A stretch of 64,000 nucleotides of DNA from an uncultured Bacteroidales bacterium. Its GTDB lineage: Bacteria; Bacteroidota; Bacteroidia; Bacteroidales; Paludibacteraceae. The notes beneath the pieces were generated by a model. It was not told the origin of the DNA, did no database searches, and saw only the letters and a program-made list of their open reading frames with translations. Below are positions 16,901 through 37,600 of the stretch, piece after piece; within the stretch, counting starts at the first letter, position 1, and each line of letters starts with the position of its first letter. The stretch covers positions 62,001-126,000 of the forward strand of contig CACWNR010000003.1 of assembly GCA_902762355.1 (NCBI GenBank), read 5' to 3'. Both the position numbers and the translations under genes were made by a program.

Positions 16901-19900
16901 TGGCGCTACTTGTGCTTGCCGCAGTAGCACCCGTTACATCCCATTGCTTGAATGCATATTTGGTAGAACCTACTCCGGCGGCAAGAGCCTTGGTGCCTAC
17001 CGTCCAAGTGGCAGTCACGTCGGCAACGTCAATAGCATCGCCATCTTCATTCACTTTATTCACCGTCACACTATAGACATCAATCGTCGTCGTGGCTGTC
17101 TTCTCGATGCCTGCTTCTGTATAAGTAGCCGTAACCGTCTGACCTGTTCCTGCACTTAGCGCACCTAACGGTGTCCATGTGGTACTTGCCGTCACGGCTT
17201 TTGTACTACCGTCACCCATCGTTGCAGTCACCACTGCACCGGTACTGCTGAAACTCTCGCCTGCAAAATATTTACGGGTTGTCGGCTGCGTCGTGATAGC
17301 GATACTCTTCAGTTTGGCGGTCGCCGATGCTGTAATCACGATATTGCCGGTAATAACTGCAGAGAACGTAAACGCGCCCGTACTATTATTATAGGTGTAA
17401 TCCGTTCCGACTGTCAGCGGCGTACCACCCATCGTCACAGCAATACTGCTCGGCAGGAAGAAGTTCGTCGCATCTACCGTAAACGTACTGTTCAACGCAG
17501 TTGTCGTGCTACCCGTGTATGTGAACGATGCCGGCAACCCCGCATTGGCTACATTCGTAAACGTCTTGGTAATCGTATAGACATTCGCTGTCCATTTCGC
17601 GTACAGCGTCATCGTCTCGTTCACCACATCGCTTGCAAAAGTCCAAGCGTTCGTGCATGCCGGCTCTTTGAACCAACCGCCGAAGGTATAACCTGTCGCA
17701 CTCGGTGCACTCGGAGCACTAATCTTGCTTCCTGCAGCCACGTTCTCCAAGTCTGAAATAGCAAGACCGTGACCCTGCAAATCGAAATGCACGGTACCTT
17801 TCACAAACGTCTTACTCATTTCCAGCGAGTGGTCGGTTACGTCCAAAGTAGCTGTAATATTATACGTCGAACCCACATGCATGCCGTCCAACGTAGCATT
17901 ATCATTATTACCCGTATTACCAATCCAACCATTGTAATTCGTCTTTGCCTTAAATTCTTGCGACTCACCTGCCGCATTCGCAGGCGCGTAATTATTATAG
18001 GTAGCCGTCCATACACCTGCTCCTTGGTCGCTGAACGATGCCAACGAACTTGCCCACTCGTCACCACTCGGATCTCCGTGCAGGTCTATCGTCACGCCCG
18101 AACCGTTCCAACGAATATAGTCTCCGTCAGAACTATCGTCATGCTTACCGGTAGAACGGATAGTGTTGCTTCCGTTTGCATCTGAATACGAGCAACCACC
18201 ATTCTTATTCCACCAATCGGAGCAGTTGGCTGCAAAACGCTGTATATCCAAATAAGGCAGATCGCCTGTGGCAGGTACAACCGTTGCAAACAGTTTCTTG
18301 CCTGCATCTCCACCGGTTGCATCAAACAACCAATAGGTCGATTGTGCGGTTTCACTTCCTCCTGCTGTATGGAACCATGCCTTCACACAACCGCCTCCCG
18401 TCCAAGCACTCGTACTTTCTGCTTGAATGAAGATGGTCTTCCCGTTCGGGAAATAGGATGCATTGGAAACAGTGATAGTAGCCACTGCGGACTCAACGGT
18501 ACAACCGCCTTGACTATTACCTACAATACATTTGAATTTTATCGTACCCGCCGAGGCTGTAGTAAGACTTGCACCCGAATAAGTAGCGAGATTGTTTGTA
18601 CCGGCTGCATTGCTCCAACTGTCTCCATTATCGGTACTTACTTTCCATAGATATGTCAGCGTTCCCGAAGCCAGTGTCGCAGATACAGATAAGGCATCCG
18701 GGCTGTCTCCTACATAATAACTCGCATCTGCCGGATCTCCTGCTACAACCGGCGGCACACATGTCGGAGTGATAGTAATGCTTACATTTCCCGTTACACT
18801 ACTTATTGACAATGCACCTGTACTGCTGTTCCATGATTTGCTTGCGTTCGTAACCACAATTTCAGCTGGTAACGCATAACCGGTAGCAGCTGTAATAGTA
18901 ATAGAACTAAATCCGCTGGCACAGGTCGTTGCCGGTATTGCTGACAACGATGCCGCCGTCACATTCGTCACTCCTGTTTTGGTTACGGTGTAACTGCTCG
19001 TCGTAAACGTCACATGACTTGCACCTGTCTGATCGGCAACGCCGTCGCAATAACCACCACCACTAGAAACGGTCGAAAGTTTAACATAATACTCCGTACA
19101 AGGATCCAAACCGGTGATGGCTTGCGAAGTCGCAGAAGCGGAAATATTATCAATTGTTGCAACAAGCGAGTTGTCCGACTCCTTATATACTTTTAATATA
19201 TTTTTACTGATACCGGTGGTGGCACCCGTCCAACCCCAGTTCGCCGTCGCCCCTGTTGTACCTACACTGGTAAAACTAAACGACCCATTTATTGACGCAA
19301 GTTCTGTACAGCAAGTTGCAGTGGTAGAATAATAGGTTGTTCCGCCTCCGGAAGTCGTCCAAGTTATACTGATACTGGCTATGCGCGTAGCACTAGAATT
19401 CATTCTGATGCCCACATATTCATAATCTGCAGCAAAATTATAAGTAGTTTGGTAATTAGAACTGCTGGTATACGTAATAGAACCGACATTGGTGCCGTAC
19501 GTAGATGAGTTGTACAAATCAGCAGCGGTACTATAAGCAGTTGATTTTCCGTATACATTGATTGTTCTGCTATCAGTTGCAGAGGAGGACCATTCAATAA
19601 CAACTGATTTGACTGTACCGCCCGATGTCGTACTAACTATACCTGCCGGACTTGTTCCACGTAATTGAATATCCGACCCATTTTTAGCCGATTGACCTGC
19701 ATAAACAGCATCTGAAGAAGAACCTGCCACATCTTCAAAAGCCACATAAGACGTTTCTGTAGCTTCCAAATCTGCCGCAGTAATCACATCTGTTACAGTA
19801 CTGCTCCCACCTCCTCCTTCTGTATGGCTATATACCGCATAATACGGACCGGCGCCATCTACCTCGGTAACAAGCGTCATAGCTGTCGAAACATTCTGTG

Positions 19901-20939
19901 CAGCGCGTTGGGTTTTACTCCAGCCGACAAAAGTCCATGCAGAGCAGCCCCCTTGATCTCCGGAACCGTCAATATCATCCAATGCCGTTCCTTCAACGAC
20001 ATTATTGATAGTAGATATCACTCCGTTACGATTAAGTGTTACATTACAAGTCCACTTGGCATACAAATCGGCATTGGCACTAAGCGATGCTCCTGCGGAT
20101 GCCGCAGAAGTTAATGCAGCATCGGTGTACCAACCTCCAAAGGTAAAGCCTGTTTTAGCAGGTGTTGGTAACGGATTTGGCAAAGCGCTTTGTCCAGATG
20201 CATTACTCGGGCAACCAGACGTCGCACCATTACAGTGATATGTAATGCTATAACCAGAAGCCGCTTTTTTATAGATATACAAAGACTCACTTCCGCTACC
20301 ACTATAACAGTTAAAAATAGGAGTTCCGTTATTGTAATTGTACTTCATATACTTTCTCGTATACGTACCTTTAGCAACAGGTTTTGCGAGCCCAGAGGAG
20401 AATGTAATAGCCCATTTGCCATTATTTCCAGGACTTGCAACAACTCCTAAACGGTTATTACTCGAAGATGTTGCCGCAAGCATACCAGCTGTGCCCGCGT
20501 AATTATCCGTAGAGAAAGTCCAACCATTCGTATTATCACCTCCCAGTGTGAAGGTCATTACGTCAGAATTAGCAGCAACGGAGACTTTTTCTGAGGAGAC
20601 TGTTACTGCAACAGTAGCACGATTGTCACTTTTTGAAGTCCTTGCGATAGCATATGCCGTGCCATTAGATTTTGAACTAACGATAATGTAATGAGAGCCA
20701 GACACCAAACCACTTGTACTCGTTATTAATTCATAAGTACCAGCCTCGATAGCTCCCCACGCATTCCCAACTCCGACAGTCAGAATGAGTACTAAAACGG
20801 ACACGAGTTTCAGCATTGTGGAACGACGGTGGAACGACGGTGAGCCGACGGTCAACCGACAGTCATGTCTTACGTCACTACTCTGTAGGTTTCCCCACGC
20901 CCCCCACAGAGCCTTCAAATAAGTAATTAAGTTTTTCAT
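13905..20939 (-). CDS. Giant secreted repeat protein (2344 aa), module gene A1
   Basis: The largest gene in the window. ATG at 20939 is preferred because its leader is AT-rich, as is typical of the phylum. The hydrophobic signal core (L-V-S-V-L-V-L-I-L-T-V-G-V-G-N-A-W-G) only comes at residues ~45-62, so the n-region is unusually long; a start at 20816 would give a normal one. The N-terminal module ends in S-L-Y-I-Y-K-K. Many Listeria-Bacteroides repeats follow (Y-N-A-N-G-G, F-x-G-W-Y/W, L-Y-A-K-W), with Ig-like and fibronectin-like domains between. The last ~120 residues (H-F-V-D-L-V-H-G ... H-L-H-L-V-G-W ... F-Y-A-V-W) match the end of A2. No sorting tail is present. Likely an adhesin or matrix component working with B1 and C1. 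An 11-mer tandem repeat lies in its 5' end. Confidence 0.75.
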   Translation of the reverse strand: MKNLITYLKALWGAWGNLQSSDVRHDCRLTVGSPSFHRRSTMLKLVSVLVLILTVGVGNAWGAIEAGTYELITSTSGLVSGSHYIIVSSKSNGTAYAIARTSKSDNRATVAVTVSSEKVSVAANSDVMTFTLGGDNTNGWTFSTDNYAGTAGMLAATSSSNNRLGVVASPGNNGKWAITFSSGLAKPVAKGTYTRKYMKYNYNNGTPIFNCYSGSGSESLYIYKKAASGYSITYHCNGATSGCPSNASGQSALPNPLPTPAKTGFTFGGWYTDAALTSAASAGASLSANADLYAKWTCNVTLNRNGVISTINNVVEGTALDDIDGSGDQGGCSAWTFVGWSKTQRAAQNVSTAMTLVTEVDGAGPYYAVYSHTEGGGGSSTVTDVITAADLEATETSYVAFEDVAGSSSDAVYAGQSAKNGSDIQLRGTSPAGIVSTTSGGTVKSVVIEWSSSATDSRTINVYGKSTAYSTAADLYNSSTYGTNVGSITYTSSSNYQTTYNFAADYEYVGIRMNSSATRIASISITWTTSGGGTTYYSTTATCCTELASINGSFSFTSVGTTGATANWGWTGATTGISKNILKVYKESDNSLVATIDNISASATSQAITGLDPCTEYYVKLSTVSSGGGYCDGVADQTGASHVTFTTSSYTVTKTGVTNVTAASLSAIPATTCASGFSSITITAATGYALPAEIVVTNASKSWNSSTGALSISSVTGNVSITITPTCVPPVVAGDPADASYYVGDSPDALSVSATLASGTLTYLWKVSTDNGDSWSNAAGTNNLATYSGASLTTASAGTIKFKCIVGNSQGGCTVESAVATITVSNASYFPNGKTIFIQAESTSAWTGGGCVKAWFHTAGGSETAQSTYWLFDATGGDAGKKLFATVVPATGDLPYLDIQRFAANCSDWWNKNGGCSYSDANGSNTIRSTGKHDDSSDGDYIRWNGSGVTIDLHGDPSGDEWASSLASFSDQGAGVWTATYNNYAPANAAGESQEFKAKTNYNGWIGNTGNNDNATLDGMHVGSTYNITATLDVTDHSLEMSKTFVKGTVHFDLQGHGLAISDLENVAAGSKISAPSAPSATGYTFGGWFKEPACTNAWTFASDVVNETMTLYAKWTANVYTITKTFTNVANAGLPASFTYTGSTTTALNSTFTVDATNFFLPSSIAVTMGGTPLTVGTDYTYNNSTGAFTFSAVITGNIVITASATAKLKSIAITTQPTTRKYFAGESFSSTGAVVTATMGDGSTKAVTASTTWTPLGALSAGTGQTVTATYTEAGIEKTATTTIDVYSVTVNKVNEDGDAIDVADVTATWTVGTKALAAGVGSTKYAFKQWDVTGATAASTSSASTTLSSPTANVVVNAVFYKPRVVKWSVNGNDSYNTGSPTTTVAYNGTISTVPTAPSGLVCASTFIAWTDAAHNNGTTAKDNASYYGSALYTAAGDFPNITAETTTFYAVFAESGGAAVNTVMWSEDWTGATSSSGSGTPSPSDARPSAQGDHSGKTVYGGATITYTDGTGTYVRTNENNAGGTAPELLIKANENWTISGIPTGGAATLTLEYRTNGTLTVSTSTDNVSIGTKSGSNPYTNTITVGSGVTSFNLSFTQTSNRRIDNVSVKVASVSLTNYVTECDANIVKVTYNANGGSTSCTNTTTDKTEDFTVCGTEPTRDYYTFAGWLCSADDEVYAASATISAAAIDADFTLTAQWTPVPYSITYELYGGTNSGSNPATYNVTTATITLQDPTKGHDRFDGWYTDDGVWSDQVTEIPLGSHGNVTLYAKWATRHHIEFFKEGISVGEIWRADDENMEDAVAGQGTAPVEPIAPPTTCSSKVFVGWTEDPIDDETDDAPADLMKPAAGTVDEDKEFHAVWDTESSSSGTETIFTDDFNVTGTDEVTSRSGWTDLSTVYGGSGSIRFSSGKNAGSMTLDVSGMEMSGTWEIKFKIKKYGSDGSGALAVSSAFEDVTTSFSPTSVSTTDGANWTEKTITVTGVHSGTEIHFDGTANSRVYVKDVEIKRTGTITTHSAYSTSCCATKVTLSENSPEHGTIVFGKTSVGTCGGDKEVSLTITPEAGYQLHSYDVATGGGKVATKSVSPAISLDNNSSAVQNITLTFADEANGAYDVTASFSLMTVTSWTWTMHDGGGAIPDPLNLYVGQNARLDVAYTPAGVDASKKTYTRNKDNAYINWVGSAYAGYSTISGRATTGENTTEVIFTHADGPTKTVNVKVLPLPLTHFVDLVHGKAFADVAATIEGNALSATKTTPTSDDWTTPNANPCEENHLHLVGWIREDWPALVEYLNGTGAAPTTVAITGAGNDGEGHAYYIAAGASINVQTFDGVTFYAVWSKVE
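20818..20861. repeat. 11-mer tandem repeat in the 5' end of A1
   Basis: Four 11-mers: GTGGAACGACG twice, then GTGAGCCGACG and GTCAACCGACA. They lie just upstream of the sequence for the hydrophobic signal core (second possible start 20816). Confidence 0.8.
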
Positions 20940-21018: not shown

Positions 21019-23580
21019 TTATTTATTGTCTGCATAATTGTGAAATGCCATTTGTTGAGCATTCTTTCGTATTTCACCAATATATCGTAGTATGGTTGGT
21101 TCATTATACTTACGTTTGTTATTTTCATCAAATGATTTCTCTAATGCTAATGCGATAAGAGAATATTCCTCATAAATCGATGTATGAAATACTCCACGAT
21201 CGTCTGTGTTGATGGATGACTTTATCAACGGATATGATGGATCACTATTCACTTTGTCAATAGGATAGAAACTCGTTAACAATGGATGTTGGTCATATCT
21301 ATCAATATATCCTATCTTTAAATTCGAGGTTGGGCAGCACTCTATAGTTATTTTCTTTTGTGAAATCTCATATTGCATCTTTTCCTGCATATCTTCAACA
21401 ACGGCAGAAATTTCTTTGAGTTTCCAAACATGTTGCTTTAATTGCATGCCGTTTTTAATAATCTCATTTTCGAAGAAATAAGCTCCATACAAATCTTTTG
21501 CAACTTGATTGTCTGTGGCATTTTGCACAATCGGTTTTCTCGAATTAGCTGTTGCATCCCAAAGGCTCATCCATGCGTAGTCATTGGAACTATTAATATA
21601 TTCAGGGTCATTACCACGCAACAACATACTTTGCCAATAGTTGTTCGTATCCCACGCTGCAATCTTGTTGTAACCAATCGCATTATATAATGTCTTTGCG
21701 ATTTTTTCGATTAAATAGTCTTCAAAAGCATGACTCATGGTAACTCCTAAAGCCCTTCCTCGTACGTACAACCAAATACACTCATCCAGTAAATTCTGTA
21801 AAGGGATCACGGACGTATAGTGGCGTCGCTTATAATACTCCTTTACATTGATGCCTAATGCCATTGCGTGACCAATGCGGCTCTGCTCATTCAAGTCAAG
21901 GAATAATATCGCCTCTTCAATAGCTCTTAATCCGTCTGGTATGTCAAGAAAATCTTCGCCTGCGTGATAGGACTTACAAGAAATACCTTTTATTGCTGCA
22001 TACCGATAAACATGTCCAAATACTTCCGGGCGGCAGAATATTTCTCTACTTGCAGCATCTATACCAACAACATATTTTTTGTCTTTCTCCCGTATTACAT
22101 CGAATATTAGTTTCTTGATCTGATTGCGATATTTTGTATCACGCGTTCCATCTTTTATAGTACCGACTTTATTAAATGGTGTCGGGAATGGGGTCTCATA
22201 TTTGCCATTCTTGATAAAATGCACTACTACACCAAATTGCTTTTTATCCTTTTTTATCGTATCATCCGCATTACATCGTGGTAACGCAAACATGGACTTT
22301 TCATATTCGTATTTCTCTTTTACAATGTTTTTCGGCGTAACGCGTGGCTCAAGAATGTCGTTATCTGAACGAGTTGATGTGTATTCAACAATGTTTGCAA
22401 AATATCTATTAATGGGAGACCATTCTGGTATAAACAAATCCTTCCTGTCTTGGTACTCCTCAAAATTCTCAAAACCTTTAATTGGATTAATCTGTACAAA
22501 TTCGCGACGAATCTTGCTCTTCAGTAATAAGTACAAATAAAAGTACGGCGCTGTAGATACACATTTGGGATCGTGGCTGTAATATCCATAGAAGAACCTA
22601 TACAACAGTTGACGCTCTCCTTGATAAACTATATTAACTATTTCTCGTTGTTTATCGCTCAATAGCAATTCGCATATTTCTTCTGAGGGCAACAAGCAAT
22701 AATCAATATGTCTTCTATTATTAGTCGGCAAAGACGAAAGTGAAGCATTGGTTACCGCAGCCTGTAAATCTAGTGCAAAACTATCAGCAAACCAAGGATC
22801 AGTTAAAATTTTATTTACCTTACAACAATAATTGTGTTCTATACATTCTTCCTCACTAAAGTTCGCATATTGTGGTTTGAGCAACAGACAGTAAAAGACA
22901 AATCGCAGGTATGCAGCCGCAACACATTGTTGCTTAAGTGTACTAGGATACTCAGTATTGGAAGAAAGTAAATCCATCTCTTGTGAACGTTTGAGATTCT
23001 CCATTTTCTTCCTCATCTGAATATTATTCGTAAGACTTATCCAATTGAGATTGAACACATCTGCGGTTGCATAGTAATGAGCGTGAACATCTGCCAATCC
23101 TTCGTCCAATACAGCATTAAGTGCTGCATTGTTATGTGGCAATATGTCTGGCCAATTCAATCGACTACGCATCGGTTGGTGTCTATTCAAATCATAATTT
23201 GCCACAAAAGCAGTAGTCAATATGTCTTCACCTATATACAATGCGGTATCTTTCCATCGGAATAGTTGTTGGAAATTCACTACGGGAAGGTCATTCTCCG
23301 AAGTGAGAACTTTCTCTGCAACCTTTTGAATAATATCAAACGGATGATATACAGAAGGCAAAGTGCTAACATCTTTTACCCAATCGCCACCGGTTTGAAT
23401 GCGCAACAAGTTGGCTTCTGTATATGTGTACTCCTGTTTTGACCATTGCACAAGCTGAGGCAGGATGTCAAGAAATACATCCTGTTGTAAATTGTTTTTA
23501 TTTTTATCCAGTTGGGCAACTAAAGTATCCACCGGATAATCATAAAACAACGCTTTTACTATGCCACGATCGAGATCCAT
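21019..23580 (-). CDS. rdrB: RADAR adenosine deaminase RdrB
   Basis: 853 aa. It carries the complete catalytic set of a metal-dependent adenosine deaminase: D-V-H-A-H at 164-168 (metal-binding H-x-H), Y-H-A-G-E-D at 538-543 (metal His, catalytic Glu), R-I-G-H-A at 568-572, and N-T-D-D at 791-794. The ~370-residue insert between the first and second motifs and the overall size fit RdrB of RADAR anti-phage systems rather than purine-salvage Add (~340 aa). In characterised RADAR, RdrB assembles with the ATPase RdrA and, on phage infection, deaminates adenosine in RNA and/or (d)ATP to inosine forms. The gene starts 3 nt after the rdrA stop, consistent with translational coupling. No motif residue is missing, so it is probably active. 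It ends 79 nt before A1 on the same strand. Confidence 0.88.
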   Translation of the reverse strand: MDLDRGIVKALFYDYPVDTLVAQLDKNKNNLQQDVFLDILPQLVQWSKQEYTYTEANLLRIQTGGDWVKDVSTLPSVYHPFDIIQKVAEKVLTSENDLPVVNFQQLFRWKDTALYIGEDILTTAFVANYDLNRHQPMRSRLNWPDILPHNNAALNAVLDEGLADVHAHYYATADVFNLNWISLTNNIQMRKKMENLKRSQEMDLLSSNTEYPSTLKQQCVAAAYLRFVFYCLLLKPQYANFSEEECIEHNYCCKVNKILTDPWFADSFALDLQAAVTNASLSSLPTNNRRHIDYCLLPSEEICELLLSDKQREIVNIVYQGERQLLYRFFYGYYSHDPKCVSTAPYFYLYLLLKSKIRREFVQINPIKGFENFEEYQDRKDLFIPEWSPINRYFANIVEYTSTRSDNDILEPRVTPKNIVKEKYEYEKSMFALPRCNADDTIKKDKKQFGVVVHFIKNGKYETPFPTPFNKVGTIKDGTRDTKYRNQIKKLIFDVIREKDKKYVVGIDAASREIFCRPEVFGHVYRYAAIKGISCKSYHAGEDFLDIPDGLRAIEEAILFLDLNEQSRIGHAMALGINVKEYYKRRHYTSVIPLQNLLDECIWLYVRGRALGVTMSHAFEDYLIEKIAKTLYNAIGYNKIAAWDTNNYWQSMLLRGNDPEYINSSNDYAWMSLWDATANSRKPIVQNATDNQVAKDLYGAYFFENEIIKNGMQLKQHVWKLKEISAVVEDMQEKMQYEISQKKITIECCPTSNLKIGYIDRYDQHPLLTSFYPIDKVNSDPSYPLIKSSINTDDRGVFHTSIYEEYSLIALALEKSFDENNKRKYNEPTILRYIGEIRKNAQQMAFHNYADNK

Positions 23581-23583
23581 TTA

Positions 23584-26415
23584 TTATTTTGAAATACACA
23601 TTTTTAATGCTTCCACAATATCATTCATCATCTTCATGACATCCGCTCTCTTATATTGAGTACCATGCAAGAATAGTTTATTTAGTTCAGGCAGGAACTG
23701 CGCATTAAGCATAAATGTCTTCATCATAGTATCATTAATAATCTTAACGATTTGTTCTCCTCTTTTAGGGAAACGTCTTCCTTTTAGACCAGACAGAACG
23801 GCATTCCTTATTTTATCATTACTTATATCCGCAATATCTACTGAAGACATGTAAGGCTTTTCACCAGTTAAAGAACTAGTAAGGTAGTCAATAGTCGTCT
23901 CTATGTCCTTTCCATTATCCTCTAACGCCTGTGATAATATATCTAAGAATTGAAATGTAACAGTTGGAGTAGATGGCTCTTCTATAAGTTTATTATCATC
24001 AAAACGCAACCGAGGATATAGTTTGATATTCAATTCTCTGATGTCATCATACGCAAAATGAATTTTCTCAAACATAGATCCTACTTTATGTGTATCTTTC
24101 TGACGTAATAATTCTTCGAAAATTGCCCATTGAATATCAATTACTCTAATAATTGCATCTGATATTAATCCATGCATCTCAAAATCCTCATATTCACCTT
24201 TCCTTATGTTATATTTCATTTGGTATAATAAAGAATTCTCGTCATCTAAAGCCAGTTCATATAATGAGGTTCCCCGTTGCATTATTTCATCGAAACGCCC
24301 ATATGCATACTTAATGTTACATACAGAATAGAATGGGGCCAAAAAATCAAAAATAGCCACGCTAGCTGATTTACTTAATACCCCAAAATGTTGAGGCACT
24401 TGTGCAAATCTATTGTAACCTTTATCTTCCTCCTTTTCTTGACTAGTAGCCGTTCTCACTAAGCACAGTGCAAGATATTCGCACATTTGGAAGGCATTAA
24501 TGAAATTAGGATTACGCTCCTCTTCAACTTTTAATAGTTCTTTATCAACAGCTTTGATTAAATTTTGGACTTTGTTAAAATTGATAGGCTTCCTATCTTG
24601 TTTCCCCGGTAATAACATTCCTTGAGGATATGAGAAATACGATCCGTTAACTAAACGCTGCAATCGATTAACATGATTATACAAACGATCTGCTTTATGA
24701 ATGTAAATCTTTGATAAATCATTGTTTTGCGGGTATAGTGTATCTTCGCTTTTTGATATTTCGTTATAGCATGCATACAAGCGCATAGAGTATACCGTTT
24801 TGATAAAGAATATCAAATTATGCATATTTTCATCAACTGTAATTGTGCTAATTAGCCACAACACAAACATTACGTCTCCTAACGATATATTTGTTGAGTT
24901 ATTTACTCTATTTGTAATATCGGCATACAACTTCACGCAGTTCATTTGGATCTCGACCTCACTTACTTCATCTGTTTTTGAAGTATTTGGCTCTGGGGTA
25001 ACGAATAGGAAGTCTCTACCCCTACGTGAAGCACTATCTTTAGGGACGATCTCTATCTTTGCGTCTTTTAGGCGCTGCGCAATATGTTCAATTACAAAAG
25101 CATTAAAAGAGGTTAAGTCTACATATTCTGATAATTGACCTGCAAATTTATAATCTACTTCCGGCAACCTCATTGCCCATGAGTTAAAGAAATAATCTTT
25201 AAAAACATCACGTCCTATTTCATTGTCACCATTTTTATCCCTGTAATCAGGAAGGGATTCCAACGTGCTTATCAAGTGGCATAATTCTCGCAAATTTCTT
25301 GGAACTATAGGAGATATATGCTGCTCATTATAGAAAACGTAACCCGTTTTTTGAAATATCAATTGTACAACTCTTTCTTTTACAGTTAAATCTTCTAAGC
25401 CATTTTCATTAGAAGAATCGATAATTTTTATTCGTTGTTCGCAAACATCTTCTATTGCCGGCATTGGCACACGATTACTGCGTGGTAACAACTTTGAGGT
25501 GTATTTGCGCGCTATTTCCTGACAATAATCCCATTTAAGATCAGTGTCTTTTACTTCTTTTTTGTGAGCTGTCGCTATCACATCAATTAATTGTTCTTCT
25601 TTTACTGAAACAAGAACAATACAATATGGGTTAATCAGATATTTGCGGAGCATTTCGGCCATGGTATAGCCTTCTGTAATGTTTAAATCCAAGTCATCAA
25701 TGCAAATAAGTAAACATTCCTTCCCTACAAATCTCAAATAACACTTAAATAATTTTTGCAGCTCTGTTTTTAATTGCAGACCAGCTGCCAAGTCACTCAT
25801 ATCTTCTATAGTGTCGTAGACAGTGTTATCCTTCTTTGGCGCCATAACGGAGATGCACTTTCTTACTCGCTGCAGTTGCTCCATTAAATTACGATGTGCG
25901 CAAGTATTTGAACAATCACTCTCACATCCTCGCTTGATTTTATCTTGCGCCTTTAGACTTATTCGTCCTAATAACAACTCCAACAAATTGTGTTTATCAT
26001 CGAAGAACGATGGATCAATCACATCAAGCCATTCAATCTTGTCCGGAGATAACATAGTATCATTGTTATTCTTATCTTTAGGAAAAGCAAGAACTTCTTT
26101 GGCTTCTGTCTGTGCGTCTTTATCTGTCAGCATCGTCGCAAATGAAGCCATACAAGAGGATTTACCCTCACCACGATCTCCACAGAAAGCAATTATATTA
26201 GATATCTTGTTGTCAATCCAGATATCATTCTCGACTCCATTGTTATTATCGAGTTTTTTTATCTGATTATATTGTTGAGCCCAAAGACGATTAAAGATGT
26301 CTATAGCCTGCTGATACTGATTCAGCATAATGGAATTTTCAAAATGGTCTCTTTCTACAACAATACCATTCTCCTCTCCTTTGCGAAATATGATAGGCTT
26401 TGCATTCATAATCAT
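23584..26415 (-). CDS. rdrA: RADAR ATPase RdrA
   Basis: 943 aa P-loop ATPase. Walker A is G-D-R-G-E-G-K-S-S at 79-87; Walker B is L-L-I-C-I-D-D-L-D-L-N at 235-245. A cysteine/histidine patch (C-E-S-D-C-S-N-T-C-A-H, ~164-174) lies between them and could bind metal. The long alpha-helical C-terminal half has no further motif I recognise. Size, P-loop layout and the immediately following deaminase identify it as RdrA, the ring-forming ATPase that recruits RdrB. ATG at 26415 follows GAGGGTAA; a second ATG two codons later is possible. The upstream 40 nt (26416-26455) is an element repeated at 26858 and 28682. No close promoter is seen; the nearest good minus-strand promoter is at 27517, implying a ~1.1-kb leader. 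Confidence 0.85.
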   Translation of the reverse strand: MIMNAKPIIFRKGEENGIVVERDHFENSIMLNQYQQAIDIFNRLWAQQYNQIKKLDNNNGVENDIWIDNKISNIIAFCGDRGEGKSSCMASFATMLTDKDAQTEAKEVLAFPKDKNNNDTMLSPDKIEWLDVIDPSFFDDKHNLLELLLGRISLKAQDKIKRGCESDCSNTCAHRNLMEQLQRVRKCISVMAPKKDNTVYDTIEDMSDLAAGLQLKTELQKLFKCYLRFVGKECLLICIDDLDLNITEGYTMAEMLRKYLINPYCIVLVSVKEEQLIDVIATAHKKEVKDTDLKWDYCQEIARKYTSKLLPRSNRVPMPAIEDVCEQRIKIIDSSNENGLEDLTVKERVVQLIFQKTGYVFYNEQHISPIVPRNLRELCHLISTLESLPDYRDKNGDNEIGRDVFKDYFFNSWAMRLPEVDYKFAGQLSEYVDLTSFNAFVIEHIAQRLKDAKIEIVPKDSASRRGRDFLFVTPEPNTSKTDEVSEVEIQMNCVKLYADITNRVNNSTNISLGDVMFVLWLISTITVDENMHNLIFFIKTVYSMRLYACYNEISKSEDTLYPQNNDLSKIYIHKADRLYNHVNRLQRLVNGSYFSYPQGMLLPGKQDRKPINFNKVQNLIKAVDKELLKVEEERNPNFINAFQMCEYLALCLVRTATSQEKEEDKGYNRFAQVPQHFGVLSKSASVAIFDFLAPFYSVCNIKYAYGRFDEIMQRGTSLYELALDDENSLLYQMKYNIRKGEYEDFEMHGLISDAIIRVIDIQWAIFEELLRQKDTHKVGSMFEKIHFAYDDIRELNIKLYPRLRFDDNKLIEEPSTPTVTFQFLDILSQALEDNGKDIETTIDYLTSSLTGEKPYMSSVDIADISNDKIRNAVLSGLKGRRFPKRGEQIVKIINDTMMKTFMLNAQFLPELNKLFLHGTQYKRADVMKMMNDIVEALKMCISK

Positions 26416-26455
26416 TTACCCTCATTCGTGTCGGGCGCAACTATTATTTTGTATT
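26416..26455 (-). promoter_or_regulatory. Leader element copy 1, directly upstream of rdrA
   Basis: Read on the minus strand: AATAC, A-rich spacer, TAATAGTTGC, then CCCGACACGAATGAGGG, TAA and the rdrA ATG. Copies 2 and 3 lie at 26858-26910 (minus) and 28682-28728 (plus). Confidence 0.7.
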
Positions 26456-26487
26456 ATGATCTTTCAGTTTTATTTTTGCCGTGACAA

Positions 26488-26840
26488 AGTGACAAAGTTT
26501 ACTTAGTCCTTTTTACTCACTTTACCCTGTACCCCAAGCTTGTATTGTACTTGTATCCTACTTGTATTGTCGCCTACTTTTACTTGGTCCTTTTCTCTTC
26601 CGGTTTTGGTATAATCGGTTTTTGTCCTTATTATGTCCTACTTTTATGCAGGTTATTACCTGTTCAGAATTTTTACTTGTTCCCTTTTTGCTTAACTTGT
26701 TCCTTTTTTTATTCAACTTGTTCCCTTTCGGACTAAGCTTGTTCCTTTTTTATCCTCAAAGGGAACAACCCTCACATCTACCTTGTGTCTTTTTTATCTA
26801 CCTTGTGTCTTTTTTACCCAAAACCTCTTTCAAAAAAGAC
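26488..26840 (-). repeat. ACAAG-type degenerate repeat array, minus orientation
   Basis: Minus-strand units such as GGACTAAGT, ATACAAG, GGAACAAG and AGACACAAGGT, each preceded by a run of A, spaced roughly 14-22 nt. Related arrays are at 27665, 28385 and 33113 on the plus strand. Confidence 0.65.
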
Positions 26841-26857
26841 ACAACCCCTGTTTCCAT

Positions 26858-26910
26858 TCCCCTCATCCGTGTCGGGTGCAACTATTATATATTTTTGGTA
26901 TTTTTATTCA
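26858..26910 (-). repeat. Leader element copy 2 (orphan)
   Basis: Minus strand reads AATACC, A/T spacer, TAATAGTTGC, ACCCGACACGGATGAGGGG. It is almost identical to copy 3 (28682-28728) in inverted orientation, but no long gene follows. Confidence 0.75.
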
Positions 26911-27516
26911 TTTTTGAGATGATTGATTGGACTCTCTGGAGTCGATGGTTGGTTCGATAAGTCATGTTAAATTTATTTATAAATGCCTCTATTGGACCAC
27001 CATCTCTGTACGCGGTACACTAAGCAATCATCATTTTTCTTTTCTTCTGCCATATTTTTTTGCACTCTCCACGTGCGCACTTTTAAATATTTGTTTGACT
27101 CTTTTTACTTAGTCCCTTTCACCCCCGGCTTGGTACTTTTTTAAGTTAGCTTGGTGCTTTTTTGAGATCAACCGTTCTATATCCTCACACCCTGCTGTCC
27201 ACTTTTCGGTGCTTCCTCACCGAACTCTTCTTTCTCACTTTGTCTCTTGTCCCGACATTCCATGTCGGTCATTGTTTTTTGCATGAGATTTTTGAGATTT
27301 TTGAGACTTTTGGTCATAATCCATTTATTATCAGCCTTCTACAAAGTCTCATCAAAGTTTCAAAGTCTCAAAGTCTCATCGTATCCAGCTATGTCCACAA
27401 AACCGATCCCTTTTATGAGGCAAGTATGTACGAATGCCTGTTATTATTGTGTCCATCTTCATTAATAATTTTATGTTCTAAATTGCACTTATGTATTTAA
27501 TATACATATTTCGGCG

Positions 27517-27547
27517 CAAAGATACTGCTTTTTTTTGATATATGCAA
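27517..27547 (-). promoter_or_regulatory. Strong Bacteroidota promoter pointing at rdrA, with no adjacent gene
   Basis: Minus strand: TTG (27547-27545), 20-nt spacer, TATCTTTG (27524-27517). The first gene downstream is rdrA, about 1.1 kb away, so the promoter may drive a long structured leader or a separate RNA. Confidence 0.65.
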
Positions 27548-27869
27548 ATAAAATTGCAGGAATTTACATAATGCTAACCGAATTATCGAAAATTACACAT
27601 TTTGCACAGAATTTGTCAATTTTTACACATTTTGCCGTTCCACATAAAGGATCGGTTATTTTGACAAAAGCAAAAAGGAATCAGTAAAAAGGACCAAGCA
27701 AAATATGCTCCGGAAGGAGAAAAGAAATAGTGCTACTCGTAGGCACTCAAAAACATACGAAGACGAACATTGACATATTGGATTACCGAAAATCGCACAG
27801 ATATGTGTCACACAGCCTTGTGTCACACAACTTTGTGTTAATTTTATTTGCATATATCATTTTTTTGTT

Positions 27870-28148
27870 GTAGATGATCTTATCAATGAGAACAGCGCAT
27901 TGTTTATTCAACAAACAGAGCACTTGACGCCTTATCAGCTGAATTTCCTGAACGCAATGTTGAATGGCATACAATCTGACTTTGCCAAAGAGGCCACAAG
28001 AGGCCAATATCAATTGGGTTCTTATAGCAATATCGCTCGAGTAAAGACAGCGCTTATTGAGAAAGAACTGATTGACACCGAAAAGGGAAAGATAGTTTTT
28101 GCAGATCCGGTGTTCCCTCTGTGGCTACAAAGGAACATTAAGGCATAA
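27870..28148 (+). pseudogene. C-terminal remnant of an AAA ATPase (archaeal-type/DUF234-like)
   Basis: An open frame encodes D-D-L-I-N-E-N-S-A-L-F-I-Q-Q ... L-T-P-Y-Q-L-N-F-L ... L-G-S-Y-S-N-I-A-R-V-K-T-A-L ... K-G-K-I-V-F-A-D-P-V-F-P-L-W-L-Q-R-N. This is the winged-helix end found at the C-terminus of Bacteroidales AAA ATPases like the intact 46883-48049 gene. The P-loop part is absent. Upstream, a TTGCATATATC -33-like block is followed directly by the fragment, without a TAnnTTTG box. A TTG at 27900 could start an 82-residue peptide, but decay by internal deletion is more likely. It sits inside a small cassette bounded by complementary motifs (27778-27787 and 28175-28184). Confidence 0.65.
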
Positions 28149-28168
28149 CATTATACTCACACACTCTT

Positions 28169-28204
28169 ACAAGCGGTAATCCAAACAAGCGGGTTGCCGC
28201 TTGT
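28169..28204 (+). terminator. Hairpin after the ATPase remnant
   Basis: ACAAGCGGTAA (28169-28179) pairs with TTGCCGCTTGT (28194-28204). No strong T-run follows. Its left arm and loop contain GGTAATCCAA, the complement of 27778-27787. Confidence 0.6.
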
Positions 28205-28384
28205 TATATATATCTATATATAAATAAGGAAAAGGCGCAGGAAAAAATCTCTGCAAAAGAGCGAAGTGAAAAAAGGCGACATTTAAATGTCGGGGAATGG
28301 AAAGAAAGAATTAACGATGTCGGATAAGATCCGACGGAATGGACAAAATAGATAAAGTGCGCACGGAAGAGTGCAAAAAGAAAC

Positions 28385-28560
28385 AGAGGTTGTGTCTTTT
28401 TTGAGGAAAAGTTGGAGAAAAAAAAGATACAAGCTATAAAAAAAGACACAAGGTGAAAGGGAGGGTTGTTCCCTTTTTGGGCGAAAAAGGAACAAGTCGA
28501 GTAAAAAAGGGAACAAGCTTAGTCCGAAAAGGAATAAGTATAAGAGGGATAGGAACCCTA
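28385..28560 (+). repeat. ACAAG-type degenerate repeat array, plus orientation
   Basis: Units include AGATACAAG, AGACACAAGG, GGAACAAG (twice) and GGAATAAG, each preceded by poly-A. The section AGAGGTTGTGTCTTTTTTGA to GGGTTGTTCCCTTT is an inverted, diverged copy of 26690-26830. Confidence 0.65.
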
Positions 28561-28681
28561 CAGAGACGTCATCATCTCGGTCGGCATAGGCTCCCCGCCT
28601 GCCTTCCCTTTTCAAAGGCAAAAGCCGATTGCCTTCTCCAGGTCGCGAGATGGTCGTGGAAATGAATGCTAAATGAGTAAT

Positions 28682-28728
28682 AATACCAAAAATATATAAT
28701 AGTTGCACCCGACACGGATGAGGGTAAA
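28682..28728 (+). promoter_or_regulatory. Leader element copy 3, upstream of the membrane-protein operon
   Basis: AATACC, A/T spacer, TAATAGTTGC, ACCCGACACGGATGAGGG, TAAA. The GAGGG is followed 9 nt later by the ATG at 28734. It matches the rdrA leader (copy 1). Confidence 0.7.
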
Positions 28729-28733
28729 AAGAT

Positions 28734-28859
28734 ATGGCAGAAAACAACACTCCGATGCGTTCTCATGGAGAAACGAAAACATTTAGTAATGATAACGTTA
28801 ACGAGAACCATCGTTCAACGAATAGCCCCATCCAGAACACAATTGGACCGGAAGACTGA
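28734..28859 (+). CDS. 41-aa leader ORF before the membrane-protein operon
   Basis: ATG at 28734, 9 nt after the GAGGG of leader element copy 3. The product is hydrophilic: M-A-E-N-N-T-P-M-R-S-H-G-E-T-K-T-F-S, then an Asn-rich stretch ending I-G-P-E-D. It stops 25 nt before the ATG of the membrane protein. It may be a translated leader peptide, the first small protein of the operon, or a decayed gene start. No family recognised. The overlapping frame from 28765 (extra 40 residues of the next gene) is considered less likely. Confidence 0.45.
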   Translation: MAENNTPMRSHGETKTFSNDNVNENHRSTNSPIQNTIGPED

Positions 28860-28884: not shown

Positions 28885-29934
28885 ATGAAAATTAAATTAA
28901 ATAAATGTAAATTTGCATTAGGCATGCTTTTATGGTTTATGATAGCCATAATAGTATGTGTATTAATAGGCGCTATATGCTATTTCTGCTATTATAAACC
29001 GTCGTTTACGGATGCTGAGCAAATGTCATTTTGGCAGTTTATTATCCAACCTCGCGAGCACCAAGCTTTCTTTTGGGGGATATTTAGTAGTGTACTTGGT
29101 GTGGTGTTTACCTTTTATTCTATCCGTCCTATATTTTCTATGAGTGAAGTGTTGGCGCGAGATAATAATGGAAGGCTACGTTTTCAAATTACCAATAAGT
29201 TGTGGTTTGCTGATTTATCAAATGTATCAATAGAAATGTATTATGTTCGCCACGAAGACAAGAATAATGACGAGCGTTATATTCCTATTGTCCTCCGAGA
29301 GGATAATGTTTCAATTATACGAAGTCGGTTAGATGGGCAGCAAGCTTGCAATTATATTGGGTTTACAGAGGCTGGGTTCCTTTGGGATAGCAGGTATGAT
29401 GTTATACGTTTCCGTGTGATTGCCACTCATTCGATTACTGGAGTTGTTCGTGTAATTGAAAAAGAATACACGCAAAAAAACATAGGAAGAGGTGTATTCC
29501 GTGATGGGAAGTTCGTTGCATATGAATCACTATACCCGACAACAAGTTGCAAGACCTGGCACGATGACATCAAAAAACGCTGCCATGCCATATGGGAAGT
29601 AAACGAAAATGTATTGCCAATCCTGCAATCTAGTAAGACTTTATTCCCGATTTCTCCTGAAGCATACAATGCTGCAAAGCAAGAACTTGAAAAGCTTCAA
29701 AATGACCCAATTAAGAAGGCATATTTCCCTTGTTTAGTTCAGAATGCTGATACCCTTGCGAGTATGTTAGAGAAGATTAATGAGTTGAAAGCGTTAAACA
29801 TTACCAATCTCAATCCAGACAACAAAAAGAAACGTGACGATATAGTCAATAAATTAAATGGATATTTGGTGTTTCTTACGCAAGAGATGGATGAAGATGT
29901 GTGGAACTTCTATAAGAATGATAATAGGGGCTGA
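28885..29934 (+). CDS. Two-TM membrane protein with cytosolic beta-rich domain (unknown)
   Basis: 349 aa from ATG at 28885; an upstream TTG-extended frame would only add a charged segment. TM1 spans ~11-36 and TM2 ~61-82. A beta-rich domain follows (~95-215) ending in the motif R-F-R-V-I-A-T-H-S-I-T-G-V-V (176-189) ... I-G-R-G-V-F-R-D-G-K-F-V (200-211). The last ~130 residues are helical and charged. The same domain and motif occur in the protein at 30491-31519, so the two are paralogues. The fold order (two TM helices, then a beta-sandwich with Y-I-P-I-V-L) vaguely recalls inward-rectifier channel C-domains; this is a guess. First long gene of the operon that shares the rdrA leader element. 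Confidence 0.65.
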   Translation: MKIKLNKCKFALGMLLWFMIAIIVCVLIGAICYFCYYKPSFTDAEQMSFWQFIIQPREHQAFFWGIFSSVLGVVFTFYSIRPIFSMSEVLARDNNGRLRFQITNKLWFADLSNVSIEMYYVRHEDKNNDERYIPIVLREDNVSIIRSRLDGQQACNYIGFTEAGFLWDSRYDVIRFRVIATHSITGVVRVIEKEYTQKNIGRGVFRDGKFVAYESLYPTTSCKTWHDDIKKRCHAIWEVNENVLPILQSSKTLFPISPEAYNAAKQELEKLQNDPIKKAYFPCLVQNADTLASMLEKINELKALNITNLNPDNKKKRDDIVNKLNGYLVFLTQEMDEDVWNFYKNDNRG

Positions 29935-30490: not shown

Positions 30491-31519
30491 ATGAAAAACT
30501 TTTTAAATCTTAAATGGCTTGTATTGTCTTTAGTGATGGTTTCCTTCGCAGTAGGAAACATCGCTGCAGACGTATCGCACGTAGAAACAGATAATACTTT
30601 TGTGCAAGCGGATAGTGCTGCTGTTGCTCAAGATTCAGCACAAAGTACAACCACTTGGGGCGTTAAGTTAGATAAGGTAATGGATCATCATCGTTTCTTG
30701 TTTAACATTATCACAAGCGCGTTGGCGGCCATCATTGTGTTGTTCTTTGTGTTTATTCTTCTACGCCCTCATATACACGTAAAGCCCATAGTTGCGATAC
30801 AAGAAAATCATAAATGGCAATTTTTGATAAAGAATTATGGGTTCTTCCCGTGCACAAATGTCCGTATACAAATCTCAAAAGTGGAATTTGACAAGAATGC
30901 AGATGAAACAGAACATGTTATTACGTTAGAAGATGGCAGCGATGTCTTTTTTGAGATCCGCGGTATTTTGCAGAGAGAGAACGATAATGAGTTGTTAATT
31001 AGTACAAAGGAGAGGAATGATTTGCCTCCCATGGTGCGTATTACCGTATTGGCGGAGCACTCTGTTTCGGGCATATCAACGGCATACAGTCATAATTTTA
31101 CCATGGCAGATATCCAAAGAGGAAGATACGAGCGTGGAGAGTTTGTCCCATTTAATAGCAGTTTCCCTTGCGTATTGATGAGAAAAAACAGTATGCGCTT
31201 AAAATGGATTCGCCGAACAATATTTGGAGTAATAGTTATCGCTACCTTACTTCTCTGCTTCTTAACAAATTTTGTTTGGTGGCAGATCGTAGTAGCGTGT
31301 TCTCTTATGATGGTCACTTTCGGCATGGTAATTCTCATATGGCAATTAGGTGTGCATAGTAGGGTTGGTGCTCATTCTTCCAGAGATCTTATCAAGTCCA
31401 TTCGGGCAATAATGATTATGCGTTCCGATTGCAAACCTAATTCGCTACAAGCACGCGCAGAAGATGCTGATTTTGAAGAGACTCCGAATCCGAAATCCAG
31501 AACACGAGTGAGGAAATAG
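30491..31519 (+). CDS. Membrane protein with signal peptide and the same beta-rich domain
   Basis: 342 aa. A hydrophobic N-terminus at 1-26 (possible signal peptide ending A-A-D), an acidic/Ala linker, TM ~68-91, then R-P-H-I-H-V and the beta-rich domain (~95-225). This has F-L-I-K-N-Y-G-F-F-P-C-T-N-V-R-I and the motif R-I-T-V-L-A-E-H-S-V-S-G-I (183-195) ... I-Q-R-G-R-Y-E-R-G-E-F-V (208-219). Both segments align with the 28885 protein. Two further TM helices follow (~242-262 and 264-285), and the C-terminal tail is basic. Together the pair could form a membrane-bound complex. Some RADAR loci carry an extra membrane protein, but I do not recognise this one as a known type. Confidence 0.65.
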   Translation: MKNFLNLKWLVLSLVMVSFAVGNIAADVSHVETDNTFVQADSAAVAQDSAQSTTTWGVKLDKVMDHHRFLFNIITSALAAIIVLFFVFILLRPHIHVKPIVAIQENHKWQFLIKNYGFFPCTNVRIQISKVEFDKNADETEHVITLEDGSDVFFEIRGILQRENDNELLISTKERNDLPPMVRITVLAEHSVSGISTAYSHNFTMADIQRGRYERGEFVPFNSSFPCVLMRKNSMRLKWIRRTIFGVIVIATLLLCFLTNFVWWQIVVACSLMMVTFGMVILIWQLGVHSRVGAHSSRDLIKSIRAIMIMRSDCKPNSLQARAEDADFEETPNPKSRTRVRK

Positions 31520-31585: not shown

Positions 31586-32062
31586 ATGAAACTGATAATT
31601 GCAAATAGAGGCGGGCATGATATTGGCAAAACAACGAGTATTAGAAATGCATTTAATGTATTGCAGGCGAAATACCCTATGACCACAACTGTGTATGAGC
31701 CTGTCGGAGTCTCCTCTTTCCCGATAGCAGGTGGAGAAGTTAAAGCTACTATAAAAATCGGAACTACGCTCGTTGGTATTGAGACACAAGGTGATCCTGG
31801 AAGTCGCATGCAACAATCAGTGGCAGATTTTATTGCTTGGGAATGTGAGATTATATTGGTAGCTTGTCGAAATCAAGGTGACACGATAAACACTATTACA
31901 AATTTAGAGAGTAATCATGGATATACGGTGCTTTGGTTGCAGAATGGCAAATGTACAGATACTGCATGTTGGCAAAAGTTAGAGGAAAAGTATGGGAATT
32001 GGATTGCCGACATTATTGAAAAATGCGCATTGACGAGAACGTTAAGTCCAACATATTTGTAA
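31586..32062 (+). CDS. Small P-loop NTPase of unknown role
   Basis: 158 aa. The P-loop is near the N-terminus (G-G-H-D-I-G-K-T-T-S, ~9-18), and a possible Walker B-like strand is at T-L-V-G-I-E-T-Q-G-D-P-G-S-R (~60-73). No membrane segment. It is the last gene of the four-gene plus-strand run beginning at 28885 and is followed by a hairpin at 32073-32096. It could be a kinase- or ParA-like regulator of the membrane proteins; that is inference. Confidence 0.6.
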   Translation: MKLIIANRGGHDIGKTTSIRNAFNVLQAKYPMTTTVYEPVGVSSFPIAGGEVKATIKIGTTLVGIETQGDPGSRMQQSVADFIAWECEIILVACRNQGDTINTITNLESNHGYTVLWLQNGKCTDTACWQKLEEKYGNWIADIIEKCALTRTLSPTYL

Positions 32063-34662: not shown

Positions 34663-37600
34663 ATGAAAACTAAAAATTTACTTAATTTGGTAGGACATGA
34701 GGCCTACGAACAAACGAGAAGGGGTCGAAATGGTCTCGATTCGTTAGTCTCTCGATTCTCTGTCGCCAGTCTGATATGCATATGTATGCTGACTGTCGGA
34801 GTGGGGAATGTTTGGGGAGCGGAAGCTGCATACAAAACAGCAAAATTTGGAAGTGCTGCCACTACTTGCACGAATGCCAATAGTTATTCTAATAGTTGGA
34901 CTAGTACCTATTCCGGATTTACCGTTACTGTAAACAATGGTAATAACAGCAACTGTAGTTGGAATCATGTGAGATTTGGCAGCAAAAGTGCAGCATCGAC
35001 AGGCACTATTGTAACCGGCGCTATTGATAAAAAAGTATCCATAGTATCAATTAACTTGAATGCAGTCAATACAACATACACAACCAGTATCAAATTATAC
35101 ACGTCTACCAATGGTTCCACTTGGACTGAAAGGGGAAGTTTTTCAAAAAGTGAAGGAACTCAATCTGTTACCATCCCAACTGCTAATAGAGCGACAGGTC
35201 TATATTATAAAGTGGAAATTGTTTGTAGTAAGAGTACTAACTCAGTAGGAAATGGATTTGTACAGATTAGTCAGGTAGACTATAAGGTAGAAACATTCAC
35301 TATGTCATATAATGCTAATGGAGGGACAGGCTCTTTGTCTGATGCCAACAGTCCGTATTTCAATGGTTCTACAGTAACTATAAAAGATAATAGTTTTAGC
35401 CGTGATGGTTATACTTTTGACCACTGGGATACGAAGTCAGATGATAGTGGTACAGACTACGCCCCTGCTGCCACTTTTTCCATTTCTGCCAATACAACTT
35501 TATATGCACAATGGGTTGCAGATGGATGTTCCAATTATTCGTTCCATTATGGTGCCACACGTGGAACGAAAAGCATCACAGATCAGACGGTTGAATGCTT
35601 TTCACGTGTAGGTTCTACTGATGAGTATCAAGTGACCGGTTTTACAATACCAGCAACATCTCAATCTTATTTCGTAGGATATACAAATTATTGGTATGAT
35701 GATGGAATGGGAACTGGTTCTTGTTCTCCCAATAAACCAGGATCAAGTCTAAACTATTTCTATTATCTGCCAATTACTCACCTTCAAGCAGGTTGCGATG
35801 GAAAAACGGGTGCAGGCTTGCCACATGCTTATGAGGGTGCATATGGTACAATACGCATATATCAAAACTCCTGCGATGCAAACCTATATGCTGGTTTTAA
35901 ACCGCAAGGTTATCAGATGCGAGTTGGAAGTGGTGACGATTGGGAGAATGTAGAACTTACTGTTGATCCGTCTGACGAAACTGTTTGGACATCAGCAGTA
36001 ATGGATGTAGATGCCACAATGAAAGAAAAGAAATATTATGTCAATATATGGACGGGTTCTGCATACAGCTCTTCAGATGATGGTGTTAGTATTAACAACT
36101 GGACTAATGGTGATAATAAAATCACAAGCATGCGCCACAAGACTAATAGTGGTGACAACTGGGCAGATGGCGTGGCAGCAGGTTCACGTGGTTTCTTCCG
36201 TACATGGGTAAACAACTGTGCAAACAATGGATATATGCACTTTGTGCCGACCCACCGCATTATTTATCACGCAAATTATCCGGTTGGCGATAGTCCGGCG
36301 GATACATATTCGGCAGATGTGTCGGTAGAAGAAACAAAGAGTGACATAGCCCTTAATGATGCTCCTAGTGCGCCGGGCGGTTACACCTTTGCCGGATGGT
36401 ATGATGCAGCCAGTGGTGGTACTAAAAAGACGGGGAATCAGACCATTTCTGCCGGTGCGAGTGCAGATCCTGAATATTATGCGCACTGGTATGGAATTAC
36501 ACTGGTAGTTAAAGACGAAGATGGTACAACACTATCCGGCGACGGAAAGCCGACACTAACACGGAGTGGGCTCTCGTTAACAGCAACAACGGCCGGGAAG
36601 TATGTATTCAAAGATATCCAGATTACCAGTGGTACGGGTACGTTGAGTTCAACGAGTTCAACGACACCGACCATAACGGCTATTAGTTCGGATATAACTG
36701 TGACGGCTACGTTCTATAAGCCGATTGCGGTGACCAAAGGAACGAACATCGGTGCAGCAACATTTACGTTGTCGGCAACAGAAGTAGCACGAGGCGGAAA
36801 TGTAACTATCACATGTGCCGCTGATGCTTCGCACAAAGGGAATCCGACTATTACAGCCACGAGTGGCAACTATAGCACTATTTCTGTAGCTTCTGCGACG
36901 AGCGCGAGTGTTAACGGGATTACCGGTCCTGTAACGATTAACATTAGTTATACCGCGAAAGAGACAGCGACAGTGAAGTTACACGTTGCAGGAAGTACAA
37001 GTACTATATCCGGCACTCGCTATGAGGGAGATAGTTATACCTTGCCAAGTGAAGCGGCAGAATGTCCCGACATGGGATTGTATGGATGGTATAATACCAG
37101 TTACTATCATGCATCAACAGCTCCTTCAGGGGCGGGTTCCCACAGTCCGGGAGCGTCCGTGACACTCTCAGCGGGAGATAATGATTTCTATGCGGTGTAT
37201 GCGACGATAGGTGATTTAGCAGATACTTACACGAAAATTACAACAGCAGGAGAATTGACAACGGGAGATTATTTAATAGTTTATGAAGGATATAGTTACA
37301 ACTGGGTAATGCAAAACGCATACCAATCCAATGAATCAACTATGGAAGATGATGACTATGCCCTAGGAACCCAAATATCGTGTACAGATGCCACCTGTAT
37401 ATGGCGGATTACAAAATCAACAACTACAATTACTATTTGTAGTACTGACAACAGCAAGTATTTCGGTTTCACTAGCAACCACGTAGCATTGATGAATGCT
37501 TCTCAGGATCTATCTTACGAAGTATCGGGAGGGAAATGGGCAATTTATGCGGGTAGTGATTACCTTGATTATGTTACATATTTCCAAAGAGGCGCAAGTA

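Follow-up and report, generated by a model that had tools for sequence, protein, structure and literature searches.

In the window (the whole 64,000-nucleotide stretch of DNA from an uncultured Bacteroidales bacterium that we analyzed), a 32-base element stands in front of the RADAR gene rdrA and again in front of a divergent operon. We will call it E. From the sequence comparisons described below, we propose that E is a portable RNA leader hairpin that acts on translation initiation via a conserved host factor, and we give this reading a probability of about 60%. What we observe is the position of E before genes, its spacing from the start codon, the co-variation of its stem, its spread, its occurrence before genes of any family, and, in island copies, a change of homology at E.

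Element E and its neighborhood in the window

The first-pass annotation had reported three near-identical leader copies in the window, and all three were confirmed by both a pattern search and a covariance model. The model scored them at 48.7 bits or higher (all three were among the 29 rows used to build it), and the runner-up in the window reached 10.4 bits (E-value of 0.54). A model-independent pattern search of the whole genome returned exactly these three places and no further one. The genome has one more copy, with greater divergence (37.5 bits), on a different contig (G000:C1:19410-19441), and the frame behind it encodes 1,419 amino acids, with an N-terminus that resembles a BspA-type secreted protein. 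With four copies in total, E is not a high-copy repeat of this genome. The features of the region are:

21019-23580, minus strand: rdrB, with an adenosine deaminase domain (PADLOC RdrB, 1.1e-21; Pfam A_deaminase, 4.8e-13)
23584-26409, minus strand: rdrA, with its probable start set by the spacing rule (the listed open reading frame starts at 26415; PADLOC RdrA, 3.7e-17)
26415-26446, minus strand: E copy 1 (53.3 bits), the leader of rdrA, with stem CCC/GGG and, nine bases on from the GGG, the ATG at 26409
26447-26855, no strand assigned: repeat-rich spacer of 409 bases from E copy 1 to copy 2, missing between E and rdrA in genome G208
26856-26887, minus strand: E copy 2 (48.7 bits), an orphan without a gene of its own; together with copy 3, it makes up a 57-nt inverted repeat
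27493-27560, minus strand: likely promoter of the rdrA arm, with -33 TTTG and -7 TATCTTTG (27524) at the known spacing (by match to the consensus only, as given in PMC7366714)
28697-28728, plus strand: E copy 3 (50.7 bits), the leader of the plus-strand operon, with the ATG at 28734 nine bases on from the GGG
28734-28859, plus strand: 41-amino-acid open reading frame behind E copy 3
28885-29934, plus strand: membrane protein 1 (349 amino acids by translation), with relatives in loci L066, L061, and L271
29962-30378, plus strand: 138-amino-acid protein with a homolog in the RADAR island of G208
30491-31519, plus strand: membrane protein 2 (342 amino acids)
31586-32062, plus strand: small protein whose N-terminus looks P-loop-like by eye (GGHDIGKTT); no Pfam match

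In the window, E reads TAATAGTTGC(G/A)CCCGACACG(A/G)ATGAGGG, and the inverted repeat formed by copies 2 and 3 (26857-26913 and 28671-28727) is 95% identical. The element does stand before rdrA, as first annotated, but the ATG nine bases past the GGG is Met3 of the listed frame, not the start at 26415. A copy also precedes the plus-strand operon; it is not directly before the membrane gene, however, since the 41-amino-acid frame comes first. The further copy that had been placed at 26858-26910 corresponds to E copy 2, which has no gene of its own and lies 409 bases from copy 1.

Searching the whole window against Rfam gave no match at the gathering score. For 26380-28800, nothing fell on E up to an E-value of 5, and two chance eukaryotic matches lay away from it. 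No tRNA or known RNA was found in the window at the thresholds used. At 27900-28148 there is an 82-amino-acid open reading frame that by eye looks like the tail of an ATPase gene and has no Pfam match. Two very large secreted-type proteins (13905-20939 and 34663-39516) flank the island, and similar large genes flank several related islands.

The predicted hairpin and its distance from the start codon

Across genomes, the consensus of E is TAAWA GTTGYG CMC GACACR, followed by 4-7 bases and GKG. Our alignment has 53 rows, without L034 and L032, and the consensus is from 52 rows, without L016 as well. The covariance model was built from the 29 rows that have a five-base variable loop. Our counts are based on 254 copies: 86 from the genus, 120 from other genome records (other Bacteroidales), and 48 from viral records. 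The genus copies exclude L001-L008, which repeat later loci, and L055 and L056, which are weak matches outside the genus.

The two arms of the stem co-vary. They read CCC/GGG in 185 of the 254 copies, CAC/GTG in 60, CCC/GTG in 7, CAC/GGG in 1, and TCC/GGG in 1, and the search patterns had admitted all four combinations of the middle stem positions. If we consider only the 183 copies with an ATG at 8-9 nt, the arms are CCC/GGG in 130, CAC/GTG in 51, and TCC/GGG and CCC/GTG in one each. Three of the eight mixed-stem copies are from outside Bacteroidota, and three are viral matches that lack the AT-rich lead or the ATG; the remaining ones are L016, which has no GKG at the usual place, and L026, which is a true exception. 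The CAC/GTG allele accounts for 36 of 48 viral copies, versus 12 of the 86 genus copies and 12 of the 120 copies from other genome records. A fourth stem pair is possible in 57 of the 60 CAC/GTG copies, whose stem is weaker, versus 87 of the 185 CCC/GGG copies; the copies of E are related to each other, so p-values on the stem and fourth-pair counts would not be fair ones. In an alignment of 105 model hits, which leans towards structure, 98.7% of the cells pair, as compared to 4.7-74.8% once one arm was slid. In having compensatory stem changes upstream of genes, E looks like a cis-acting structured RNA leader.

The core stem has 3-4 pairs, and numerous compensatory changes are seen at just one of them. 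Folding single copies against shuffled sequences gave no clear margin (z of -1.17 and -0.60 for window copies; -2.67 for the best of six). Because the pattern that collected most of the copies fixes the core, variation in the core is under-sampled. There is a hint that a four-base loop replaces the long loop in a few island copies. A GNRA tetraloop pattern matched 7 places in 6 of 178 genomes (6 of them with a matching stem, and none in the reversed control), and a looser NNNN pattern matched 23 places in 19 genomes, with mixed loops (1 in the reversed control). Several of the NNNN places are probably chance matches in coding sequence.

An ATG frame follows E in 212 of the 254 copies (42 have none nearby), and in 183 of these 212 the ATG lies 8-9 nt past the stem. 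A GTG start at these distances was found once. A is common at position -3 of E leaders.

We also examined what lies upstream of E. The -7 motif TAnnTTTG was found upstream of 28 of the 120 copies from other Bacteroidales, versus 4.3 with shuffled sequences, and 22 of these 28 motifs fall into the bins 21-60 nt before E. The enrichment is small elsewhere (7 of 86 versus 2.5 in the genus; 4 of 48 versus 1.2 in viral records). In 55 of 212 copies, a co-directional upstream frame stops at most 50 nt from E, and in 31 of 212 at most 20 nt from it (raw counts, with no shuffled control). Given the -7 motifs upstream and the closely preceding frames, E most likely sits in the message, not in the promoter. 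If so, the hairpin would adjoin the 30S subunit at the start site. PMC6847099 describes Bacteroidetes mRNAs as lacking Shine-Dalgarno sequences and as having A-rich starts, and it reports that structure close to the start codon mostly hinders initiation. Since such structure mostly hinders initiation, a hairpin at a fixed distance is less likely to be accidental than to serve as a handle or an operator.

Of the promoter-like sites in the window that point to rdrA, the best one is at 27524, ~1.1 kb upstream of the gene, as judged by matching the Bacteroidetes consensus that PMC7366714 gives and that we used to score -7 and -33 motifs. A perfect 20-nt inverted repeat (27536-27555 and 27840-27859) includes the -33 region of this site. 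Also, 41-42 bases at 27509-27549, which contain the site, match three porcine microviruses at 92.9% (by BLAST).

Distribution, gene families, and exchange of partners

By pattern search, 35 of 101 genomes carry E. With the covariance model, we found E in 118 of 178 genomes of the genus (at most 9 per genome) and, when genomes were drawn evenly from the order, in 23 of 295; each of these three counts includes the window's own genome. A draw from the phylum gave 4 of 296, which are its own genome and three weak ones (E-values of 3.7e-5 to 6.3e-4). Scanning one genome per species with the pattern gave at least 117 stretches, and among the matches listed, 113 of 117 are from Bacteroidota and four are from Rhizobium, Nitrospira, Salinibaculum, and Paracoccus. 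In IMG/VR, 60 stretches match the pattern, some of which are GC-rich and look like chance matches. When 38 virus records were searched whole, each had one match at E-values up to 0.01. One BLAST search of phage and plasmid records gave only the three porcine microviruses at 27509-27549, two gave no match, and another gave only 18-base chance matches in 38 Acinetobacter phages; with a query of just 50 bases, such searches do not show that E is absent from these records.

The proteins encoded behind E belong to diverse families. Among 88 host proteins scanned (of 110), the most common Pfam family was LRR_5, with 3 members. LRR_5 had 15 members among 51 scanned proteins (of 61) from the genus, and no Pfam family recurred among 37 scanned viral proteins (of 39). 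Because the downstream families are unrelated, E is not tied to one protein family. The genus set includes rdrA as well as the families RhuM, AIPR, and GmrSD, whose names point to defence.

The window does contain a RADAR locus, with an RdrA-like ATPase beside an RdrB-like adenosine deaminase. The first-pass annotation had proposed that the element suggests shared control of rdrA and the membrane operon, and that the operon may belong to the defence unit. Both rdrA and the divergent operon do have this leader in front of them, but a leader in common is not evidence that they are one unit. We found rdrA in 9 of 178 genomes of the genus, and when we sought E in the fetched stretches (as the core with up to 3 substitutions), just two of the nine rdrA loci had it before rdrA: the window and locus L060 of G208. 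Also, E is found ahead of many genes that are unrelated to each other, both across the order and in viral contigs, which the annotation had itself named as grounds for giving up the idea. A RADAR-specific leader is rejected by this distribution, with E in 118 of 178 genomes, rdrA in 9, and both at 2 of 9 loci.

The membrane operon fared no better as a RADAR component. Relatives of membrane proteins 1 and 2 are found in E-bearing stretches of G206 (L061), G114 (L066), and G040 (L271), and rdrA was not found in these three genomes, which are drafts and may miss genes. (The E beside the membrane gene in L061 is a weak match, at 18.1 bits.) As far as a few loci in draft genomes can indicate, the operon is not a RADAR accessory. 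In G208, E precedes rdrA, and the divergent operon includes a homolog of the 138-amino-acid protein (38% identity over 128 amino acids). The same operon encodes a membrane protein of putAbiC (L060 12612-13649, 4e-15), a family of putative abortive infection proteins. This related operon opposite rdrA favors the annotation's reading, but two loci fit linkage or a shared type of island alike. A leader that is common to rdrA and the divergent operon does make shared post-transcriptional control plausible. The most economical view is that the window holds a defence island whose two arms diverge and acquire different modules.

To describe the exchange of genes at E, we used 49 hand-picked island-type copies from 18 sources, with 60 bases before and 96 after E and with family score thresholds that we set ourselves. 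All ten downstream families with at least two members have at least two upstream families, and the converse is true of each of the ten upstream families. If two copies have the same downstream family, their upstream identities are 0.55-0.68 (versus a background of 0.51-0.66), and if they have the same upstream family, their downstream identities are 0.51-0.53 (versus 0.51-0.55). Because homology switches at E on both sides in these copies, E appears to be also a joint where genes change partners. For instance, the window and G208 share an upstream stretch (94.6% identity over 203 bp) that is followed by E in both. Past that first E, the window has 409 bp of repeats and the second E, and G208 has rdrA directly. 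The sequences point to exchange, which may have come about by site-specific or by general recombination.

The junction of upstream stretch, E, and rdrA has the same orientation in the window and in G208. The promoter block of the window (27233-27699, with the -7 motif at 27524 on the minus strand) is reversed in G208 (L060 10231-10725), which is another species. Inversion of the promoter between the two arms is possible. In loci with E on both strands, the copies face outward (8 of 8). A serine recombinase motif is present in 4 of the 18 loci, and the window's island lacks it; the Resolvase match in L061 is at 1.9e-34. A Resolvase-type serine recombinase lies between outward-facing copies of E at L061 7794-8405, L062 7432-8040, and L064 1349-1957, and the motif is also found in L020.

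Alternative explanations, proposed mechanism, and significance

E might be primarily a DNA joint, either a site-specific one or a stretch for general recombination, whose place before the ATG is a by-product. The two-way shuffling of families in the 49 island copies, with identity at background exactly beyond E, would fit this, as would the outward-facing copies and the recombinase motif in some loci. But single copies far from arrays, and those in virus records (one per record in all 38), keep the spacing of 8-9 nt; compensatory stem changes and a variable loop length are not expected of a core site; and the window's island has no recombinase motif. We consider this account unlikely. Direct pairing with 16S rRNA, by which GUUGCGC and CCGACAC would recruit the 30S subunit via two nearby stretches, seems less likely still. 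Every base of the 14-nt core can form a Watson-Crick pair with GTGTCGG or GCGCAAC, which are 17 nt apart in the 16S gene of G063, and 2 of 1,500 shuffled cores equal the real core against the same 4,529-nt locus. However, 189 of 1,500 shuffles do equally well if G-U pairs are allowed, and one pair is lost in CAC/GTG copies and in those that have A at position 11. Also, the idea was formed after the sequence was seen, and it was tested on G063 alone (of 31 genomes, 1 yielded a 16S sequence; the window's own genome did not).

A role of E as a promoter, or as an operator in the DNA that a transcription factor or another sigma factor would recognize, is very unlikely. E is strongly conserved and near genes, and its AT-rich lead TAAWAGTTG is somewhat like TAnnTTTG, but the spacing differs by one base: E contains TAAWAGTTGY, not the TAnnTTTG of Bacteroidetes sigma-ABfr promoters. 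The 30 nt upstream of the core, beyond the AT-rich position -5, carry at most 0.53 bit per position (212 copies), and the arms co-vary across loops that differ in length by 1-3 bases. The -7 motifs upstream of E and the closely preceding frames also disfavor a promoter. Finally, it is highly improbable that E is private to RADAR, as the leader of an extended system with the membrane operon as one of its parts. E is on both arms here, and the rdrA of G208 lies behind E with a related divergent operon, but seven of the nine rdrA loci in the genus lack E, E stands before unrelated genes in far more genomes than have rdrA, and genes related to those for the membrane proteins are present in genomes where we detected no rdrA.

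Returning to E as a portable leader hairpin, we propose that the hairpin forms in the mRNA and that a 30S-bound component or an RNA-binding protein would read the loop GACACR and the flank GUUGYG. E might thereby help accessory genes, such as those for defence, surface proteins, or phage functions, to be translated without a Shine-Dalgarno sequence; alternatively, the host may gate accessory genes through E. In the window, rdrA and the membrane operon would be connected through E only in that each has this kind of leader. Genes of the island would have been exchanged behind E, and rdrA and the membrane operon would not be one RADAR system.

A more elaborate version of this proposal is doubtful: E could be a plug-in translation handle that is common to Bacteroidales and phages (CCC/GGG being the common chromosomal allele and CAC/GTG the viral one) and that now joins the cassettes of a leader-based system. 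In it, genes for defence, toxins, and surface proteins would replace one another behind promoters that stay in place, to either side of a central switch region. If captured genes carry the same handle, then the handle would have become the cassette joint.

E resembles integron cassettes and invertible promoters in that genes change partners at a short shared sequence. Inverted copies flank a region with a likely promoter, and some islands have a serine recombinase motif. The core of the integron attachment site is GTTRRRY. In contrast, E has GTTGYGC, without a GTTRRRY core, and it also occurs as single copies outside of arrays.

Among start-proximal sequences, the SAS/ESAS elements of Cluster K mycobacteriophages are described in PMC3203893 as 13 bp long, with a Shine-Dalgarno core and 11-19 copies per phage. 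There, the authors report little support for an RNA hairpin, and they give the function as unknown, with a role in translation suspected. Like SAS in that description (PMC3203893), E is short, conserved, a few bases from the start, in one orientation, in front of varied gene families, and preferentially before ATG. Unlike SAS as presented there, E is 32 bp with co-varying arms, has another sequence, occurs once per virus record searched, and is also found in bacterial genomes. As a conserved structured RNA near genes, E is similar to the structured cis-regulatory leaders of Bacteroidales that appear in Weinberg et al. 2010 (PMC2864571) and Rfam 15; unlike those leaders, E is far smaller, is not bound to one gene family, and has no Rfam match in the window. 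E occupies the same place in the message as the A-rich, Shine-Dalgarno-free starts of Bacteroidetes described in PMC6847099, and A at -3 is common, but structure is mostly unfavorable at those starts, whereas E keeps a hairpin at a fixed distance.

We found no paper for five core strings of E, and the literature on start-proximal leaders held no description that we recognized as E (neither search covered bioRxiv). As judged from sequence, E appears to be a cis-acting, start-proximal RNA leader, and it is unusual in that many unrelated genes have it, in bacterial genomes as well as in viral contigs.

It is an open question how translation begins in Bacteroidota without Shine-Dalgarno pairing, and another is how genes that pass from one species to the next come to be expressed there. 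E is a defined 32-nt part with natural compensatory alleles, which makes it testable with reporters. It also carries a caution, which is that a shared leader is not evidence for one defence system. E suggests better start sites, as for rdrA here, and it marks points of gene exchange in islands.
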